Below are positions 5,885-24,102 of a DNA stretch of 24,102 nucleotides, piece after piece (the first letter of the stretch is position 1; every line of letters begins with the position of its first letter). Both the position numbers and the translations under genes were made by a program. This stretch comes from a virus. The notes beneath the pieces are model-generated. The model did no database searches. It was not told where the DNA came from and saw only the letters and a list, made by a program, of their open reading frames with translations. The stretch lies in IMG/VR virus record IMGVR_UViG_3300021964_008585, positions 1 through 24,102 of that record; one strand, 5' to 3'.

Positions 5885-6457
5885 TTATTCTCTCCATAGT
5901 AAATTATCTGCTTTAAATCTTCTCATCTTATAACCCATATTCATTAACAATTTAATTGAATCAGTTGCTTCTTTTCTTTTGTTTTCTAATAACACAACAG
6001 GTGAATATTTTTTTATTGTTTCTAAAGAACCTTGAATTACAGCGTTTTCATGTTGTTCTGTATCTATTTTTATAAGACTAACATCTAAGAAGTTATAAGA
6101 ATCTAGTGTGTTAATTTGTACTTCATACGTTTTTAAATTAACTCTTTTATTCCATTTACTTCTTCTCGTCGTGTCTATTGTACTAAAATCTGATCTTCCG
6201 TTTGGTTCAAATAGAATAGCTGTACCATCTGTGTTTGATAATGCTTCCTTATGTAATACAACATGAGAAGTATCATACTGTAAAATATTTTCTTGAAACA
6301 TTTCAATTGCATTGGGATTTGGCTCAAAGCAATGTATAGTATCGAAATATTCTAACATAGGAATAGTTGTCAAGCCAACATTAGCTCCAATATCTATATA
6401 CACTCCTCTGTTTTTTATTAGAGGTAATACATTATTAATTAATACTTTAGCACTCAT
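5885..6457 (-). CDS. FkbM-family methyltransferase
   Basis: A 190-residue SAM-dependent methyltransferase. Motif I is YIDIGANVGLT (residues 20-30). The acidic ribose-binding loop is in HCFEPNPNAIEMF, and the FkbM mark is LIKIDTEQHENAVIQG followed by YSPVVLLEN. In most FkbM proteins the middle motif reads D-V-E-G-x-E; here Gly is replaced by Gln, which may alter the loop but keeps the acidic residues. These enzymes O-methylate sugars or related hydroxyls. It overlaps kdsA by 11 bases, so a role in capping or marking the glycan made by the operon is likely. Confidence 0.88.
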   Translation of the reverse strand: MSAKVLINNVLPLIKNRGVYIDIGANVGLTTIPMLEYFDTIHCFEPNPNAIEMFQENILQYDTSHVVLHKEALSNTDGTAILFEPNGRSDFSTIDTTRRSKWNKRVNLKTYEVQINTLDSYNFLDVSLIKIDTEQHENAVIQGSLETIKKYSPVVLLENKRKEATDSIKLLMNMGYKMRRFKADNLLWRE

Positions 6458-7223: not shown

Positions 7224-7975
7224 CTTCGTTCGATATCCAATTCTGTTAACTCATCACCAAACCAAGTTTCGATAATCTTAGCCGGCTCTTTACCTTTATT
7301 GCTAGGTTTATGCCAAACCATTTTACCAATATCAAAGCTTTGAGTAGGTATAATAAGATCACTTCTCTTGACACCCATCCATTCTGTTTCCATAGATACT
7401 TGACCTTGTACAACGTGCCAATGTTCTGAGCGTTTGCTATGTCTTTGATCTGATAAAGATTTACCTGGTAAAATAGTAAGTTCCTTAACAGCCCAACCAT
7501 CACCTTCGTCTAGCACTCTGTACCAACCCCAAGGTCGTTCAGTTTTAGGCGCTTTCCAGTCCTCTAAAATCCATGAAGAACTATTAGCTTTATTTTTACC
7601 ACCAACAGCAAATTTAAAATCAACTTCAAACTCAAAACTAGCGTCCATTTCTGGAATGTTTTTATTTGTTCTATCTCCACCGTTCATAAAGATAAGTTGA
7701 CTATCAGGGAACATCGCTGCGGCTCTTTCAATTAGATCACATGCTGTATCATCGTCATCTGCAAAATCTGTAGCATAATTTACATCATGCATAGCTTTAA
7801 TAATACGAATGCGTTCATTAAAAGGCATAAAATATCTACCTTTTTTTCTTGCGAGCCATTCATCTGAATTAACACCAACTAATAAAAAATCACAATGAGC
7901 TTTAGCAGCTCTTATGTAGCTAATGTGACCTGAATGAACAGGATCAAATCCACCTGAAATAATACCTATTCTCAT
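7220..7975 (-). CDS. Nucleotidyltransferase-cupin fusion (TagD/RfaE-like + ManC-type isomerase domain)
   Basis: A 251-residue two-domain protein. Residues 1-140 are a HxGH cytidylyl/adenylyltransferase of the TagD/RfaE type: GGFDPVHSGH (8-17), VGVNSDEWLARKKG and GGKNKANSSSWIL. Residues 145-245 are a cupin like the C-terminal domain of type II phosphomannose isomerase: RPWGWYRVL (147-155) and QRHSKRSEHWHVVQG (177-191, likely metal ligands Q177, H179, E184 and H185 or H187). The start is set at the ATGA overlap with the upstream gene; an ATG 11 codons earlier overlaps that gene further and is not needed. The pairing would link sugar isomerisation and nucleotide activation in one protein. The true substrate is unknown. 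ManC fuses its cupin to a different (GT-A fold) nucleotidyltransferase, so this architecture is a distinct one. Confidence 0.88.
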   Translation of the reverse strand: MRIGIISGGFDPVHSGHISYIRAAKAHCDFLLVGVNSDEWLARKKGRYFMPFNERIRIIKAMHDVNYATDFADDDDTACDLIERAAAMFPDSQLIFMNGGDRTNKNIPEMDASFEFEVDFKFAVGGKNKANSSSWILEDWKAPKTERPWGWYRVLDEGDGWAVKELTILPGKSLSDQRHSKRSEHWHVVQGQVSMETEWMGVKRSDLIIPTQSFDIGKMVWHKPSNKGKEPAKIIETWFGDELTELDIERR

Positions 7976-15500: not shown

Positions 15501-16324
15501 GGTTTTCCTTCTGCAATTTCTTCCGGCCACCATTCAATATGAGTTAGTTGTTGTAACCACAAGTTTCGATCTAAGCGGGGTGGATCTTCAATATCGCGCC
15601 AATTTCTAATTGACATCGGATACGCAAAAGATTGACACCCTGTAAATGTATGTACACCCCTAATAGTAGCTTCTATAGCTGGATTTGATGAATGATTGAC
15701 TACACACCAAGACCTATCTAATATGTCACTAAAGTTAAAATTATCAGCTACACCTGTATGTTTTGGAACGTCAAAATAAACGTTTTTATTTTCTTTAGCA
15801 ATAGTAGGGAAGTCTGTAATTCTATCTCTAGGATGAGGTCTAATAACAATATCACGTTCACTGTATTGTCTAATTTCTCTTACAGCATTTCGTACATATG
15901 TTTCTACTGTAGGCATAGAAGACCATTGATGAGAGTCAGGGCGTTGTGTTGCTATAGTAATAAATTGACCATCATCTTTCCAAGGCTGTAACTCTAAACC
16001 AAATTTAGATACCCTGTCTATTTCTAGATTGTTTTTATTTGCAAATTCAGCGCCGTTATTAATACCGTTGATACCAACACGCCAAGTCTCGTTACGTTTA
16101 ATTGCACCAACTTCTAGAACTATGATTGGTTTGTCTTGTTTGGTAAAGTGTTCCCAAACTTGACGATTTGGTTCCATTCGTCCTGCAAATAGTATTGACC
16201 ATATGACTGCAACGTCTGCGTCCATGTCGTTGTATACGATGGATTCGTCACAACCTTCTGCAAAGGAATCAAAGACTGGTTTTGAGTTGAGTGCGCCATA
16301 ATTGGTAAAAAGTGAGACTCGCAT
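15470..16324 (-). CDS. KpsS/KpsC-like capsule-type glycosyltransferase, paralogue 4
   Basis: A 284-residue protein with the module DIVIRPHPRDR and WCVVNHSSNPAIEATIRGVHTF: R.HP and HSS..IEA...G are intact while the usual P after G is H. LELQPWKDDGQFITIATQRP matches paralogue 1. No Shine-Dalgarno precedes the ATG, but a TATAAT box ends six bases before it, so the gene may start the glycan operon on a leaderless message. Probable cytosolic sugar transferase, role in capsule-type polymer synthesis inferred from the family. Confidence 0.75.
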   Translation of the reverse strand: MRVSLFTNYGALNSKPVFDSFAEGCDESIVYNDMDADVAVIWSILFAGRMEPNRQVWEHFTKQDKPIIVLEVGAIKRNETWRVGINGINNGAEFANKNNLEIDRVSKFGLELQPWKDDGQFITIATQRPDSHQWSSMPTVETYVRNAVREIRQYSERDIVIRPHPRDRITDFPTIAKENKNVYFDVPKHTGVADNFNFSDILDRSWCVVNHSSNPAIEATIRGVHTFTGCQSFAYPMSIRNWRDIEDPPRLDRNLWLQQLTHIEWWPEEIAEGKPWNRLKNYLW

Positions 16325-17300: not shown

Positions 17301-17310
17301 GTATTATTTA

Positions 17311-19014
17311 TTATTTTTTCGAATCTTTTATTTTAGAGAAATTACCATCTTTATAGTATTCTATTAAAGATTTAAACCTATCACCGTTTTGACTTTTATG
17401 AGATATAACAAACACATTCGCGTTTTCTAGACCGCCAAGTATATCCCACAACACATCTGTCGCTTCTGCATCAAGAGAACTATCACCTACTTCATCCATA
17501 ATAAGAAGATTAGTATTAATAGAGTTTTTCAGTTTAGCAATTTCTCTCCATGTAAACATAAGAGCAAGATCAATTCTCATCTTTTCTCCTTCTGAGAAAG
17601 ATGCGTAACTAAACGTATCTCTATAACGAGATTTTATAACCTCATTAAATGATTCATCGAGATGGAATGAATAATTAGCACCCATTCTGTCTAAGTACTG
17701 GTTAATTAATTGGTTCATAACTGGTAAGTATTGTTTAATAATCTTAGCTTTAATGCCATCATCTTTAAGAAGAATCTTACAGATTTCATAATAATGTTTC
17801 GTTTCAACATAATTATGTGACTGTCTTTCTAAGAATTTAAACTCGTTATCAAACTTTTCTAAGTCTTTCTGAGCTTCTTTTAACGAGGTTTCATCTGATT
17901 CTTGTGTACGTACTTCGAGATTACCATACAGTGTAAAGAGAGCTTTCTTCTGGTTAACGAGGTCTTTACGTATTTCGATAATCGAATCATATTGCGTTTT
18001 TACTTCTTGTGCTTCTCTAATTTTATCTTCTAATTTTTGATACGTGGTTAAAACAACAGGTTTCAAATTCTCAAGCTTATCAACTTCTTCTTGTAAAACA
18101 TTTACTTGTTTTACCTTAAGGTTTTGATCTATATCTTGTTCACAAACATAACAGTGATCGTGGTTATTATAAAATTTAAGACGACCTTCTACTTCAGCGC
18201 GCTTAGCTTTTATCTCTTGACCTTTATATTTAGCACTTGATAACTTATCTTGTAAATCAGTAATATCAATAAGTTCAATTAAATTAATTTCACTATCTGT
18301 ATGTGTTATTTTTTCTTCGATAAGCGAGATCTGACCATCAATTTTTTTCTTCTCTGCAATGATCTTTTCTTCTGATTCTTTAGTTCTGTTAACTAAATTA
18401 TTAATAAGACCTTTTTGACCCGATATTTTAGTCTTTGCTATTTCTTTCTGGTATTCATTATCTTTGATATCTAATTCAATATTTTGTAATCTATTCTTAA
18501 GTATAGTATTCATTTTTGAGAATACAGTAATATCTAAGATTTCTTCAATAATGACTCTACGATCATTTGTAGGTAAATCCATAAACGATTGATACCTTGC
18601 AGAACCTAGAATCACAATTTGCGTAAACGCTTTATAGTTAAGACCAATAATATCTTCTAATCTTTTTTGATAGTCTTTAATAGCCGCATCATGAGGCATG
18701 ATTTGACCGTTACGATAGATTTCAAATTTATTAGGCTTAAGACCTCTAACAACTTTATAGTCTGTTTCGTTTACTGTAAATTCAACTTGTACCTCTAAAC
18801 CTTTTTCATTAACAGTATTCATTAACTGTGGTTTATTAATATTACGATACGGTTTACCAAAGACACCGAAACATAAAGCATCTAGTATGGTTGATTTACC
18901 AGATCCATTTTGACCAGTAATAAGAACTGAAGGTACTCTATTGAGTAAAATCACATTCGGAATATTACCAGTAGATAAAAAATTCTTATAAGATACAGTC
19001 TTAAAAACTATCAT
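17311..19014 (-). CDS. 46: Recombination endonuclease subunit, SbcC/Rad50-like ATPase (T4 gp46)
   Basis: ATPase subunit of the nuclease that resects DNA ends for recombination-dependent replication and takes part in host DNA breakdown in T4. The 567 residues (T4 gp46 is about 560) hold Walker A GQNGSGKST (34-42), long coiled coils about 180-280 and 300-410, the zinc hook C288-Y-V-C291, signature SFSEGEKMR (472-480), Walker B LLIMDE (503-508) and D-loop SSLD (512-515). Its start overlaps the stop of gene 47 as ATGA, as expected for a subunit pair. Nothing is missing. Confidence 0.97.
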   Translation of the reverse strand: MIVFKTVSYKNFLSTGNIPNVILLNRVPSVLITGQNGSGKSTILDALCFGVFGKPYRNINKPQLMNTVNEKGLEVQVEFTVNETDYKVVRGLKPNKFEIYRNGQIMPHDAAIKDYQKRLEDIIGLNYKAFTQIVILGSARYQSFMDLPTNDRRVIIEEILDITVFSKMNTILKNRLQNIELDIKDNEYQKEIAKTKISGQKGLINNLVNRTKESEEKIIAEKKKIDGQISLIEEKITHTDSEINLIELIDITDLQDKLSSAKYKGQEIKAKRAEVEGRLKFYNNHDHCYVCEQDIDQNLKVKQVNVLQEEVDKLENLKPVVLTTYQKLEDKIREAQEVKTQYDSIIEIRKDLVNQKKALFTLYGNLEVRTQESDETSLKEAQKDLEKFDNEFKFLERQSHNYVETKHYYEICKILLKDDGIKAKIIKQYLPVMNQLINQYLDRMGANYSFHLDESFNEVIKSRYRDTFSYASFSEGEKMRIDLALMFTWREIAKLKNSINTNLLIMDEVGDSSLDAEATDVLWDILGGLENANVFVISHKSQNGDRFKSLIEYYKDGNFSKIKDSKK

Positions 19015-20045
19015 TCATCCATACTCATTGCTTCGTCATATATTTCTATCATAAGCTTTTTTATTGATTCTTTATTATTATCTGTTGCAACGTCTTCAAT
19101 ATATTCACCAATAAGTTCTGTAGTAGAAGATAAATGAATAATATCTTTAACATTTTCTTGATTATACTCTTCAAACGATTCTAGAATTTTTAACTCAAAA
19201 GGTGATTGAAAATTAATTTTATCTACAAATCTCTCAAAATCTTCGAATAATGTTTTCTTCTTTACATTTATTTTAACATATGAATTTTCTAAGTTTTCGG
19301 CTTCTCTATCAGGTTTATCATCCCACACAAACCTATTAAAGTATCTTAGATTATTTTCAATAAACTCCCATGAGTTGTCTGTTGTATCTAAAATCCAAAA
19401 ACCATGTTTTGTATAAGCATCATTCCATGTTAACTGGTAAGGTGTACCTATATAGTGTACGTTCTGTTGTTTAGATTGCGTATGATAGTGACCTGATATT
19501 ACTTGATTCCATTCTTTAAAGTCACTATACTTAAGACCGTCTCTAGATATAGCACCAGGATGCATTAGCGCTCCTTCTATCTCAAAATGTCCTACTAGAA
19601 GATCACCACCTTGCTTAACAACATTTAATATAGTTTCATAATTCTCCTTACACATCCAAGGTACAAGAGTAATGTTAACACCGTCAAATTCTAATGTTGT
19701 AGTTACATCATAATAATTCATCCACTCTTCTGTTAGAATCTGTTGTGGTGAATTATTATCTAAGGAGTTTCTTAAAGGTATATCATGGTTACCAATAATA
19801 CCATGCGTCGTTACACCAAGTTCTTTTGCTTTATTAACATACACTTCTCTTTGAAATGCCATGGTTTGTAGATTAATCCATTTACGATTATCAAAATAAT
19901 CACCAGTTTGAATAACTGTTGTGATACCATATTTTTCAATAGAAGGCCAAAACACTTCATTATAAAAACGACCTTGCCAGTGTTGAATAATTTGATTAGA
20001 GTTACGAGCACCGAAGTGTGTATCACCTAAAAACGCAATTTTCAT
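19011..20045 (-). CDS. 47: Recombination endonuclease subunit, SbcD/Mre11-like (T4 gp47)
   Basis: Nuclease subunit partner of gp46. The 344 residues carry the five phosphoesterase motifs: GDTHFG (D8, H10), QTGDYFDN (D49), IGNHDI (N86, H87), VGHFE (H153) and SGHYHTQ (H186, H188), which bind two metal ions. Length is that of T4 gp47 (339). A strong AAGGAAG lies seven bases before the ATG and the start is two bases after the gene 55 stop, so the genes are co-transcribed. Confidence 0.97.
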   Translation of the reverse strand: MKIAFLGDTHFGARNSNQIIQHWQGRFYNEVFWPSIEKYGITTVIQTGDYFDNRKWINLQTMAFQREVYVNKAKELGVTTHGIIGNHDIPLRNSLDNNSPQQILTEEWMNYYDVTTTLEFDGVNITLVPWMCKENYETILNVVKQGGDLLVGHFEIEGALMHPGAISRDGLKYSDFKEWNQVISGHYHTQSKQQNVHYIGTPYQLTWNDAYTKHGFWILDTTDNSWEFIENNLRYFNRFVWDDKPDREAENLENSYVKINVKKKTLFEDFERFVDKINFQSPFELKILESFEEYNQENVKDIIHLSSTTELIGEYIEDVATDNNKESIKKLMIEIYDEAMSMDE

Positions 20046-20047
20046 TA

Positions 20048-20641
20048 TTAATCTTCCTTTGGACGAAGCGGTGTACCACCTGTATAAGCTTCTCTTGATT
20101 CTTTTGTATAACCTGTACGTAAAGAAAAACCACCTTTACCTTTTTCTACTTTTTGACTTTGTAGTTCTTCTAATTTTTGATCCGCAATGGAACGAGCATG
20201 CTGATCTGATACATCAATAAATTCCTGATTACCCATAACAGAAACTTCTGCTTCTTGAATGAGTTTTAAATTAAGCTCATATTTCTTTTTTTCATTTTTA
20301 ATAGTCTGGATCATATGACTAAATAATATTTGTGTTACATATGCAAAGCCATTATCAAATCTTTCGCCATCAAAACGATACATATATTTCATAGCGCCTA
20401 AAATTGCGTTTTGCACCATCTCGTCTCTATACATATAACCTTTAAAGCGCGGGGTAAGAGATAGTCTATTAGACATTTTATACACACATTCACCTAGATA
20501 ACGAGACATTTGTGGTCTCTCTTTACCTTCAGCTAATGCTTTTTTACACGCTTGGCTATACTCGTCAAGTGCTAATGTAAACTCAACATTATTTACATAA
20601 TGAGCGTCGCCGGGTTTTTGTCTGGTTCTTTTTTCTGTCAT
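20048..20641 (-). CDS. 55: Late-transcription sigma factor (T4 gp55-like)
   Basis: A 197-residue protein (T4 gp55 is 185) aligned by the opening YVNNVEFTLALDEY, by MVQNAILGAMKYMYRFDGERF and by NGFAYVTQILFSHMIQTIKNEKKK (in two parts), which is the region 2-like core that reads the late promoter -10. gp55 with the sliding clamp directs RNA polymerase to TATAAATA promoters, and one such box lies in this window at 22566-22573. The start overlaps the uvsW stop as ATGA without a Shine-Dalgarno, so coupling is needed. The C-terminal tail is basic and Gly rich. Confidence 0.92.
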   Translation of the reverse strand: MTEKRTRQKPGDAHYVNNVEFTLALDEYSQACKKALAEGKERPQMSRYLGECVYKMSNRLSLTPRFKGYMYRDEMVQNAILGAMKYMYRFDGERFDNGFAYVTQILFSHMIQTIKNEKKKYELNLKLIQEAEVSVMGNQEFIDVSDQHARSIADQKLEELQSQKVEKGKGGFSLRTGYTKESREAYTGGTPLRPKED

Positions 20642-22098
20642 AGGTCAATAGTGTTGATCTTGTAATCAAACTCCTCTGTAGTATAAAACTTAAAGCGTTC
20701 ATTAGAATGTCTTAATGCAAAATTATCTCTTGATTTATATTTTAAGTCATCTATAATATCAAACACAGTAGCTTTTTGTCCGTTATCCGACTTACGTAAG
20801 ATACGTCCTATTGATTGTAATACTTTTATTTTAGATTTGGTAGGATGTGCAAACACCAAATTATGAAGGTTACGTATATTAACACCAGTAGAGAATACGC
20901 CGAGTGACGCAACAATAATAACGTCATTAGATTCTGCCATTTGTCTAACAGCTTCACGCGAGTCTTTATCTGTCTCTCCTGCAACATAATATAATTGTTT
21001 TTCTGTGTCAATCCTATCAAAGATATCTTTGCCATGATCTAACCTTAAAAATACTACTAACGTGTTACCTGGTAATGTAGATGCCATTTTAGCTATAAGA
21101 CTATTTCTTTTCTCATGTGTTACAATGAATTCTACCTCTTCATTATAAGTCATATCTTTTACTTTTTTGCGATCACTCTCTTCGTAACGAAGTTGAAGTA
21201 ATCGAATATTCATCTGTGATACTTGATCACGTTCCATTAACTCTTTTGTGGTAATAAGTTTATGTACAGAACCAAAAAGTCCTTTTAACACCAACTCGTG
21301 CGTCTTAGCTTCTTGTAATGTTCCTGTAAGTCCTATTCTATCAGGACATATTAACATCTTATTCATAATTGATTGAATAGATTTAGCTTGCGCGTGATGT
21401 ACTTCATCTACAACTACTGAACCAAACTGCGCATACCAGCTAGCTGGCATTTTATAGATAGATTGCCATGTAGATATAACAACTCTTTCTTCAGTTTCTT
21501 TCTCAACACCACCAGTAATACCATGCATGTTAACAAACTTTCCATTAGAGTAATCTTTAAAGTCACTCATCATTTGACTTACTAATGAAACTGTAGGTAC
21601 AATAATAAGAATTTTTCTATCGTGTGTTTCTAACCACCATCTAATAAGAGCATATATTATAAGAGACTTGCCTGATGCTGTAGGTGATAATAATAAACAC
21701 CTTTGCTGTGTTATAGCTTTCTTAAACGCTTCTCTTTGATAGTCTCTCATCTCAATAGGTTCCCCTTTTGAGAATGGTTTAAGTACATCTAAGAATTTAT
21801 CTAAGAAGCTATCATCAGATGATTCTTTACCAGGGAAGTTATATTGACTACCTTCGAAGTAGCACTCAACATCCATATCTTTAGCAAACTTAGTTATATC
21901 CCCTGTTAACCCTGCATAGATCGTGCTCTCCCTTAGGTTAGCTAGTCTTATCTTACCATCCCAATACTTACTTCTATATTGAGGTGTAAATTCAGCTCCA
22001 GGTACTTTAAATGTAAAGTAATCACTTAACATTCTTAAGTCGCTTTTATCACCTTCGAATTCAAGGTATACGTCGTTTTTTTTACGAAATGTTATCAT
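20638..22098 (-). CDS. uvsW: UvsW-like recombination helicase
   Basis: Superfamily 2 helicase that unwinds branched DNA and R-loops, shifting T4 replication from origin-dependent to recombination-dependent. The 486 residues (T4 UvsW is 503) have an N-terminal domain with YFTFKVPGAEF and YWDGKIRL (about 27-52), a Q-like MRDYQREA (117-124), Walker A SPTASGKS (138-145), IVPTVSLVSQ, DEVH (231-234), TGT (258-260), FLRLDHG, and motif VI QSIGRILRK (428-436). The start is coupled to uvsY as ATGA with GGAAG close by. Complete. Confidence 0.95.
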   Translation of the reverse strand: MITFRKKNDVYLEFEGDKSDLRMLSDYFTFKVPGAEFTPQYRSKYWDGKIRLANLRESTIYAGLTGDITKFAKDMDVECYFEGSQYNFPGKESSDDSFLDKFLDVLKPFSKGEPIEMRDYQREAFKKAITQQRCLLLSPTASGKSLIIYALIRWWLETHDRKILIIVPTVSLVSQMMSDFKDYSNGKFVNMHGITGGVEKETEERVVISTWQSIYKMPASWYAQFGSVVVDEVHHAQAKSIQSIMNKMLICPDRIGLTGTLQEAKTHELVLKGLFGSVHKLITTKELMERDQVSQMNIRLLQLRYEESDRKKVKDMTYNEEVEFIVTHEKRNSLIAKMASTLPGNTLVVFLRLDHGKDIFDRIDTEKQLYYVAGETDKDSREAVRQMAESNDVIIVASLGVFSTGVNIRNLHNLVFAHPTKSKIKVLQSIGRILRKSDNGQKATVFDIIDDLKYKSRDNFALRHSNERFKFYTTEEFDYKINTIDL

Positions 22099-22529
22099 AG
22101 ACTTCCAGAAGTAAATCTAACCCAATCGATTGCATTTTTGATTGATTGGTTTCTCCACTTAATTTGCTCAAGTATATGATTGAGACCTTCAAGTAGAATG
22201 TTTATATACTCTATTTTCTGTTCAATTGCAACTACTTCAGGATCAGTATTGACATGTTTATCCACACCTGCTTTAGTCTTAAGTTTGAGATCAAAAGGCT
22301 TTTCTTTATAATCATCAGCAGTAGCTTGACCTGAATAATAGAGTTCTTTTTCTTTTTTGAGACCTTCTAGTTTATGATTAATTGCAATTTTACGTGCTTT
22401 TAAATCCATAAGCATTGTTAGGTACTTATGATGTAATCTAGGCGCGTCAGTAGCTGCAGAATCAAGCGCTGTTTTATCAATAGGTGCATCTTCTTCCCAC
22501 ATAGATAAAAGCTCTTCATGTGTTAACAT
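22095..22529 (-). CDS. uvsY: UvsY-like recombination mediator
   Basis: A 144-residue protein (T4 UvsY is 137). It helps load the UvsX recombinase on single-strand DNA coated by gp32. The KELYYSGQATADDY block matches LDYYSGRGDGDEF of T4 UvsY, and the C-terminal half (INILLEGLNHILEQIKWRNQ) is the helical oligomer part. AAGG lies nine bases before the ATG. It is the first gene of the leftward core operon, just behind a promoter-like element. UvsX itself is not in the window. Confidence 0.9.
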   Translation of the reverse strand: MLTHEELLSMWEEDAPIDKTALDSAATDAPRLHHKYLTMLMDLKARKIAINHKLEGLKKEKELYYSGQATADDYKEKPFDLKLKTKAGVDKHVNTDPEVVAIEQKIEYINILLEGLNHILEQIKWRNQSIKNAIDWVRFTSGSL

Positions 22530-22563
22530 TTTTATAAACCTTTACATAGATCTCAACACCTAC

Positions 22564-22592
22564 ATTATAAATAGTTTAATGGTTAAGTTCTT
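22564..22592 (-). promoter_or_regulatory. Promoter with AAGAACTT box, for the uvsY operon
   Basis: On the minus strand TATAAT (22564-22569) follows AAGAACTT (22585-22592) after 15 bases, 35 bases upstream of the uvsY ATG. Box and spacing are identical to 2952-2980. T4 uvsY has a MotA-dependent middle promoter, so a middle-type activator is a fair analogy. The box is also part of an inverted repeat GTTAAG/CTTAAC. The -10 overlaps the plus-strand late promoter. Confidence 0.6.
22566..22573 (+). promoter_or_regulatory. T4-type late promoter, toward phoH
   Basis: Exact TATAAATA, the T4 late consensus read by gp55, on the plus strand in the only divergent gap of the window. Expected start is near 22579. 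It is 95 bases before the phoH ATG, with a hairpin terminator in between. The window also encodes gp55. Confidence 0.65.
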
Positions 22593-22606
22593 AACTATAT
22601 CCAACC

Positions 22607-22641
22607 AACCTCCAGCCAGTAATGGCCATGGAGGTTTTTTT
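22607..22641 (+). terminator. Intrinsic terminator upstream of phoH (leader)
   Basis: AACCTCCA pairs with TGGAGGTT, enclosing an inner hairpin GCCA-GTAA-TGGC with a two-base bulge, and the stem runs straight into seven Ts. It is on the plus strand, ending 26 bases before the phoH start codon and after the late promoter. It would end a leader of about 60 bases or act as an attenuator. The other strand lacks a T-run. A perfect stem-loop GTTAA-GTTC-TTAAC at 22583-22596 precedes it. Confidence 0.8.
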
Positions 22642-22667
22642 ATTTTATTCCCAGGAGAATTAAATTA

Positions 22668-23354
22668 ATGGCACGAGCTAAAAAGAAAGAGACTTTCGTT
22701 AAAGAAATCCAATCATCATCTGCTTTCCATATACAACCTAAGAATCCTACACAACAATATCTTTTAGACTGTATTGATCAATCTGTTATGACAGTTTGTA
22801 TTGGTCCTGCAGGTACAGGTAAAACATTCTGTACAGGTATGAAAGCAGCTCAATTGATACTTAAAGGTGGTTACGATAAAATAGTGCTCACAAGACCTAA
22901 TGTTGCAACTGGTAGATCATTAGGTTATTTTCCTGGTTCTGTAGAAGAAAAGATGACACCTTGGCTTAAACCTATTATGAATGTATTACAAGATGGTTTA
23001 GGAAAAGGTCGTTATGACTATATGTTTTCGAAAGAACAAATTCAAATTCAACCTATAGAGACGATCAGAGGTAATTCATTCGAAGATTGTATTATCATTG
23101 TAGATGAATCTCAAAACCTAAACATGTCTGAGATTAAAGCTATTACAACTCGTATTGGTGAAAACTCTAAACTTATCTTATTAGGAGACCCAGCACAATC
23201 AGATGTGCATGATGGTGAAGCGTTAGATGAATTTGTTGAGATGTGTCATCACTATGGTATAGAGGCACCTATTGTAAGGTTTACAACTGATCATATTGTT
23301 CGATCAGATATAGTAGCTCAATTAGTAAAGATGTTTGCTAAAAATAACATATAA
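22668..23354 (+). CDS. phoH: PhoH-family ATPase
   Basis: A 228-residue cytosolic ATPase, the only rightward protein gene here. Walker A GPAGTGKT (46-53), IVLTRPNVATGRSLGYFPG (72-90, the PhoH mark), ETIRGNSFEDCIIIVDESQN with Walker B D146-E147, and LLGDPAQSD (171-179) are all intact. PhoH is frequent in marine phages; a role in phosphate stress or RNA handling is suggested but unproven. The start has AGGAG about ten bases upstream. It is preceded by a late promoter and a leader terminator and followed by a strong terminator. Confidence 0.96.
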   Translation: MARAKKKETFVKEIQSSSAFHIQPKNPTQQYLLDCIDQSVMTVCIGPAGTGKTFCTGMKAAQLILKGGYDKIVLTRPNVATGRSLGYFPGSVEEKMTPWLKPIMNVLQDGLGKGRYDYMFSKEQIQIQPIETIRGNSFEDCIIIVDESQNLNMSEIKAITTRIGENSKLILLGDPAQSDVHDGEALDEFVEMCHHYGIEAPIVRFTTDHIVRSDIVAQLVKMFAKNNI

Positions 23355-23359
23355 GAAGA

Positions 23360-23380
23360 GGGGCTTAAGCCCCTTTTTTT
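23360..23380 (+). terminator. Intrinsic terminator after phoH
   Basis: GGGGCTTAAGCCCC, a perfect inverted repeat with a TTAA loop, followed by seven Ts, five bases after the phoH stop. The T-run overlaps the stop codon of the convergent FG-GAP gene. On the minus strand the following TCTTCTTATAT is only moderately T-rich, so it may work weakly in both directions. Confidence 0.95.
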
Positions 23381-24102
23381 AAATTTTTTCTTCGTATAAC
23401 TGAACATTTCCAAAACTAGTGTATGAACCATTCGATGGAAAAGTAGTACTGAAAACAAAAGAAGTACCATCTGCGTTTGTAGATATACCACCTTCGCCAT
23501 GGCGGCCGTTATATACAGCTTGGTATGGATATATTTTTTGCCCATAAGAATCACCATTGCGATGTGGGTATATTGTCCATGTAGAATCTACTAATTCATA
23601 AACTGAAATTGTTCCTCGAGAATAATCGCGTACCGCAGTAATAAAAACACGTGTACCAGCACTGTTAATTGCAACTCTAAATCCAAATTCGTCACTATAG
23701 TCGCCATTAATACTAGCTTCTAGTGACCAAGTCGATCCAGACCTAGAATAAATATAAGCGGAACCAGAACTACTATAATTACCACCGGTACCAGGATTTT
23801 CGGGCGCGCCAACAATAACTTTAGTACCACTAGAATTAATAGCGACATCGTGGCCAAATTTTCCACCAGCATAATTTGCAGGATTAGTTAACTTAGCTTG
23901 TTGTGTCCAGGTTGATCCAGACCTTGTAAAGATATAAGCACTACCAGTACTAGATGGTGCTTGCGATCCTACAATAGCATAGTTACCATCACCATTTATT
24001 GATACTGAGTTACCAAAATTATCTTTTGCTTGTAAATCAGATGGTGTTAGTTTAGTTTGTTCAGTCCAAGTAGAACCTGATCTACTAAAAATGTACGCGG
24101 AT
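23379..24102 (-). CDS. FG-GAP repeat protein, C-terminal part (partial)
   Basis: Open reading on the minus strand from the right edge to a TAA at 23379, giving 240 residues of C-terminus; the start is outside the window. It contains repeats of about 53-60 residues, each with SAYIFxRSGSTW, then an FG followed by V.I...G....VGAP-like strand (for example FGNSVSINGDGNYAIVG and FGHDVAINSSGTKVIVGAP). This is the FG-GAP beta-propeller pattern found in integrin heads and secreted or surface proteins. The last repeats degenerate (EFGFRVAINSAGTRVFI) and the final 60 residues lack the pattern. A virion or fibre-associated adhesion role is plausible, not shown. It is convergent with phoH. Confidence 0.85.
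   Translation of the reverse strand, partial: SAYIFSRSGSTWTEQTKLTPSDLQAKDNFGNSVSINGDGNYAIVGSQAPSSTGSAYIFTRSGSTWTQQAKLTNPANYAGGKFGHDVAINSSGTKVIVGAPENPGTGGNYSSSGSAYIYSRSGSTWSLEASINGDYSDEFGFRVAINSAGTRVFITAVRDYSRGTISVYELVDSTWTIYPHRNGDSYGQKIYPYQAVYNGRHGEGGISTNADGTSFVFSTTFPSNGSYTSFGNVQLYEEKI

Follow-up and report, generated by a model that had tools for sequence, protein, structure and literature searches.

The uvsY–phoH gap and its shared boxes

The window, the whole 24,102-base stretch of DNA analysed here, comes from a marine T4-like myovirus. PHROGs profiles confirm UvsY, a UvsW-type helicase, gp55, gp47, gp46 and PhoH (Table 1), which bears out the gene identities given in a preliminary description of this DNA, including the location of gp55 in a leftward operon. 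Because the five leftward genes lie head to tail, from 22529 to 17311, uvsY-uvsW-55-47-46 look like one operon. The order phoH / uvsY-uvsW-55-47-46 is constant in all related records that reach that far, and gp55 is encoded within the uvsY operon in every one long enough to show gene 55. In clades B, C and D (defined below), about 240–290 bp or more separate uvsY from uvsW; gene 55 might also have an internal promoter of its own. Elsewhere in the window, a row of six tRNA genes (Trp, Met, Asn, Leu, Gly, Arg) occupies 100–582 (−), and a terminator-like hairpin lies directly 3′ of phoH (23352–23381).

The uvsY and phoH promoters are most simply both placed in the 138-bp gap between these divergent genes. 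Within it, ATTATAAATA (22564–22573) can be read in both directions, as TATAAATA on the plus strand and as TATAAT on the minus strand, the two boxes having 4 bp in common. The preliminary description held that these ten bases serve as a −10 element leftward and as a late box rightward, and both sequences are indeed in place. The right-hand end that it gave to the element, 22592, falls on the leftward −35, AAGAAC, given a 17-bp spacer. Leftward transcripts are predicted to start near 22557 and rightward late transcripts at about 22578. With these starts 21 bp apart, the core elements of the two divergent promoters overlap and lie within one RNA polymerase footprint.

Table 1. Positions of genes and sequence elements in the window, and of late-box sites in a cultured phage
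Feature	Position	Strand	Evidence or remark
gene 46	17311..19014	−	PHROGs profile
gene 47	19011..20045	−	PHROGs profile
gene 55, late sigma factor	20048..20641	−	phrog_234, 3.4e-37
uvsW-type helicase	20638..22098	−	PHROGs profile
uvsY	22095..22529	−	phrog_231, 4e-40
uvsY 5′ leader, SD-like AAAGG at 22543–22539	22530..22557	−	inferred from −10 position
leftward −10 TATAAT, uvsY operon promoter	22564..22569	−	TATAAT/TATATT/TATAAC at matching place, all clades
late box TATAAATA	22566..22573	+	conserved as NATAAATA in clades A–F; genome-wide spacing rule
leftward −35 AAGAAC, 17-bp spacer	22587..22592	−	TAGAAA-like in relatives; cross-lineage match
5′ hairpin of late transcript (hairpin 1), holds leader ORF ATG; palindrome GGTTAAG-TT-CTTAACT	22579..22598	+	one compensated pair, clade A
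candidate leader ORF, 29 codons, MVKFLTISNQPPASNGHGGFFILFPGELN	22579..22668	+	stop overlaps phoH start (TAATG); P about 0.15
intrinsic terminator-like hairpin (hairpin 2) 22607–22636, U-tract 22635–22641	22607..22641	+	compensated stem changes, clades A, C, D
phoH Shine-Dalgarno AGGAG	22653..22657	+	conserved in aligned divergent loci
phoH	22668..23354	+	phrog_170, 1.6e-75
HTVC008M N5 sites	6268–6282, 7550–7564, 16005–16019(−), 18914–18928(−), 19444–19458, 31120–31134, 49748–49762		annotated CDS starts

Conservation of the opposed promoters

Scans with PhoH and UvsY, together with a PhoH alignment, recovered many loci with a divergent uvsY/phoH gap. They represent six clades of uncultured T4-like phages, grouped by eye rather than from a tree: A (the window, L004–L009), B (L011/L102), C (L043/L107, L047/L118, L048–L051/L108), D (L106, L111–L117, L119), E (L046/L099, L100) and F (L105). 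Among cultured phages, the best PhoH and UvsY identities fall below 60%, so no published transcriptome is directly applicable. The published phoH timing that we consulted was not informative for this phage.

The leftward promoter is of the sigma70 type, with a −10 near TATAAT and a −35 at 16–18 bp. When TAGAAA is compared with the −35 region of seven lineage representatives, 38 of 42 letters match, versus a mean of 27 and a maximum of 33 in 500 shuffles; the match peaks at 17-bp spacing, and the spacers are 16–18 bp in all seven. One caveat is that the −10s (TATAAT, TATATT or TATAAC) were chosen by eye before the −35 test and that the lineages are related by descent, so the 38/42 match is evidence of conservation rather than a clean probability. 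The window's own AAGAAC is weak. A generic sigma70 scan of the window returns sites no more numerous than in shuffles, and the leftward promoter goes unlisted on account of its poor −35. A rightward sigma70 candidate, TTTACA-N16-CATTAT (22541–22568), was rejected since it is not kept in relatives. In most clades the uvsY ATG follows the −10 by 6–8 nt, and the mRNA would be leaderless there; in the window it follows by 34 nt, and the leader carries an SD-like AAAGG. As a genome-wide rule for leaderless early genes, a fixed distance from TATAAT to ATG shows no enrichment and was rejected. The leftward strand of the window holds no ATAAATA between 22529 and 17311, which leaves the uvsY operon without a perfect late box.

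The rightward box is of the T4 late promoter type in all clades. T4 late promoters (TATAAATA; gp55, gp33 and gp45) have the same box sequence, and here a gp55 homologue is encoded nearby. In clade A, a block of some 33 bp running from the shared boxes to the end of the palindrome is nearly invariant; clade D is nearly invariant for the first 45 or so bases past the box. The late box overlaps the leftward −10 by 4 bp in clades A, B, C and D and by 1 bp in clade F. In clade E (L099, L100), its overlap is instead with the leftward −35, by 1 bp, and the −10 stays clear of it. The preliminary description is therefore upheld as regards two opposed promoters of two classes in one footprint, an arrangement seen across clades; the ten-base overlap itself is not universal. 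Comparison of these loci supports a sigma70-like promoter leftward and a probable gp55-type promoter rightward, and the conserved feature is overlap within one polymerase footprint rather than shared bases.

It is quite possible, if short of an even chance, that the overlap reflects economy of space, with sigma factor availability setting separate periods for the two promoters and occlusion adding nothing. The gaps are only about 100–138 bp long in genomes that are mostly 94–98% coding by our own ORF calls, the AT-rich TATAAT and ATAAATA easily overlap, and clade E has a different overlap. Sigma70 promoters may also simply go quiet late in infection. What speaks against mere economy is that the one-footprint overlap is found in every clade despite rearranged spacing, the predicted starts being 12 to 47 bp apart.

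Late-box spacing and the phoH leader

In 15 related records, one of them 109 kb long, ATAAATA precedes an ATG by exactly 4 nt (N4) in 52 of 153 cases, which gives the late box a fixed position before late genes; the count includes orthologues across related records and hence does not represent 52 independent events. Permuted 7-mers give a flat background, except where they overlap the box out of register. In the 109-kb record by itself, 15 of 48 ATAAATA lie at this distance. In the records listed in full, the ATGs at N4 open ORFs of 52–723 codons, many of them structural-like by place; the phoH leader ORF is the exception. At the phoH site, the spacing is N4 in clades B, C (with GTG), D and E, N5 in A and N7 in F. 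Other ATAAATA-N4-ATG sites lie at 17305–17311 (−) and 1604–1610 (−) in the window, and in L079–L091 and L122–L132.

The same rule holds at N5 in HTVC008M, a cultured SAR11 phage (L133), with 9 sites genome-wide versus 1 in the control; in its first 50 kb, 7 of 7 N5 sites coincide with annotated CDS starts. The spacing rule implies that late mRNAs may be leaderless in this phage group. In T4, late boxes are mostly 21–28 nt before the ATG, in contrast to typically 4 nt here (5 nt at the phoH site), and in the stretches of T4 and S-PM2 examined, the ATAAATA-ATG excess is found at roughly 21–28 nt. A literature search, which left most subscription journals outside its reach, found no paper on leaderless late mRNAs in T4-like phages. 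Middle-promoter searches found none in the marine phage Melnitz (PMC9004378), and prediction of middle and late promoters failed in pelagimyophages (PMC7029224). The 4-nt spacing rule offers a means of predicting late genes in these uncultured phages.

These results bear on whether one or both boxes arise by chance, with phoH transcribed from elsewhere. The window contains no excess of TATAAATA (3 observed versus 5.0 expected), and ATAAATA is depleted (7 versus 16.1), a rarity in keeping with a functional signal that is avoided at other places. We regard chance as very improbable, given the conservation of the boxes and the spacing rule, and given that no alternative conserved promoter was found in the gap. 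Both boxes are thus judged to be real, on the basis of conservation and spacing rather than counts.

Two hairpins and a 29-codon ORF occupy the stretch from the late box to phoH; neither the rightward terminator nor the ORF figured in the preliminary description. The leader folds with −23.6 kcal/mol (z −3.55). In the window, the second hairpin has a 12-pair stem with a bulge, followed by U7, and so has the G+C stem and U-tract of an intrinsic terminator. Compensated stem changes, counted on arms chosen by hand, affect two pairs of hairpin 2 and one of hairpin 1 in clade A, one pair in clade C and several in clade D. Hairpin 1 is missing from the minimum-energy fold in L005, L006 and L119. In the interval from the terminator to phoH, neither a further late box nor a recognisable promoter was found. 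Because the terminator separates the late box from phoH, late transcripts must read through it to reach the gene. The earlier suggestion that gp55 would start phoH is in this respect incomplete: a late box does lie upstream of phoH, but the intervening hairpin and U-tract argue against simple activation.

Conceivably, the rightward unit serves chiefly to make a small RNA of about 60–65 nt, with phoH reached only by read-through. A promoter, a 5′ hairpin and a hairpin with U-tract are all present in clades A, B, E, F and part of D, and the stems are compensated. We nevertheless think it unlikely, since clade C and most of clade D lack a U-tract at the terminator hairpin, the sequence past the conserved 5′ block varies freely, and no Rfam family matches the leader at threshold (tRNAs alone reach it in the window; weak sub-threshold matches over the leader were dismissed). 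The idea that the palindrome GGTWAAGTTCTTWACT is a repeated, regulon-wide operator was also rejected: every locus searched has it only once, and the window contains near-matches at a frequency that exceeds chance slightly at most.

Alternatively, the 29-codon ORF could encode a genuine leader peptide and, through its translation, govern termination ahead of phoH, as in attenuation. Every clade has its start codon at N4, N5 or N7, in A, C, D, E and F the frame stays open across the hairpin, and N4 is also the distance at which real genes begin elsewhere. In clade B the frame stops inside the hairpin. The openness is statistically weak in each clade (P 0.08–0.31), and the peptides differ between clades, with no sequence conservation. 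We consider this account doubtful, though a little less so than the small-RNA gene.

A possible early-to-late switch

The arrangement of the two promoters is real and conserved, and as judged from sequence a timing switch is plausible. The opposed promoters are conserved, gp55 is encoded in the operon and the operon has no late box of its own in the window; the two promoters therefore probably exclude each other, with a hand-over from early to late. A gp55-driven autoregulation of the uvsY operon is plausible. Early in infection, unmodified sigma70-type polymerase would use the leftward −35 and −10 to transcribe uvsY-uvsW-55-47-46. Later, gp55 would form the late holoenzyme with gp33 and the clamp and bind TATAAATA, and late polymerase would transcribe rightward, passing over the spacer and −35 of the leftward promoter. 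As the two sites could not be occupied jointly, late activation would repress gp55's own operon and so act as passive negative feedback. The short leader RNA so produced would read into phoH through the terminator-like hairpin; our best guess is that ribosomes on the leader ORF, following the polymerase, prevent termination.

We put slightly better than even odds on a mutually exclusive, bidirectional early/late promoter with passive feedback on the gp55 operon and read-through into phoH. Against it stand the weak AAGAAC, the −10s picked by eye and clade E, where the late box is separated from the −10. The fuller combination, in which gp55 represses itself and translation of a leaderless micro-ORF opens the phoH terminator, is improbable; if it were true, phoH would be made only in the presence of late polymerase and of ribosomes competent on leaderless mRNA. 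In T4, moreover, late transcription depends on replication as well as on gp33 and the gp45 clamp (PMC2988020); accumulation of gp55 alone may therefore not throw the switch. Were a sigma factor to close its own operon through a shared promoter, it would constitute a minimal timer with no extra regulator. The question bears on gene timing in T4-like phages without MotA and AsiA.

Overlapping early and late promoters have been described in RB49 and proposed in S-PM2 (PMC2984593). As here, an early sigma70-like promoter and a late box lie near one gene in phages without motA/asiA; according to that review, both promoters serve one gene there, whereas in the present case the promoters diverge and each has a gene of its own. 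In plasmid pLS20, divergent promoters overlap to form a switch (PMC4207663), and in phi29 a protein drives the switch from early to late promoters (PMC3100819). In both, the promoter arrangement is reported to let one programme displace another, as we propose here, but through dedicated DNA-binding regulators (by DNA looping or hairpin formation), whereas our proposed regulator is the alternative sigma factor itself. The uvsY-uvsW-55-47-46 cluster of S-PM2 has the gene order seen here, with minor insertions. Unlike here, uvsY of S-PM2 follows gene 3 on the same strand and does not adjoin a divergent phoH. In L103/L104, where uvsY was not found beside phoH, a terminator-like hairpin with a T-tract, followed by no evident promoter, lies immediately 5′ of phoH (locus position 2001).
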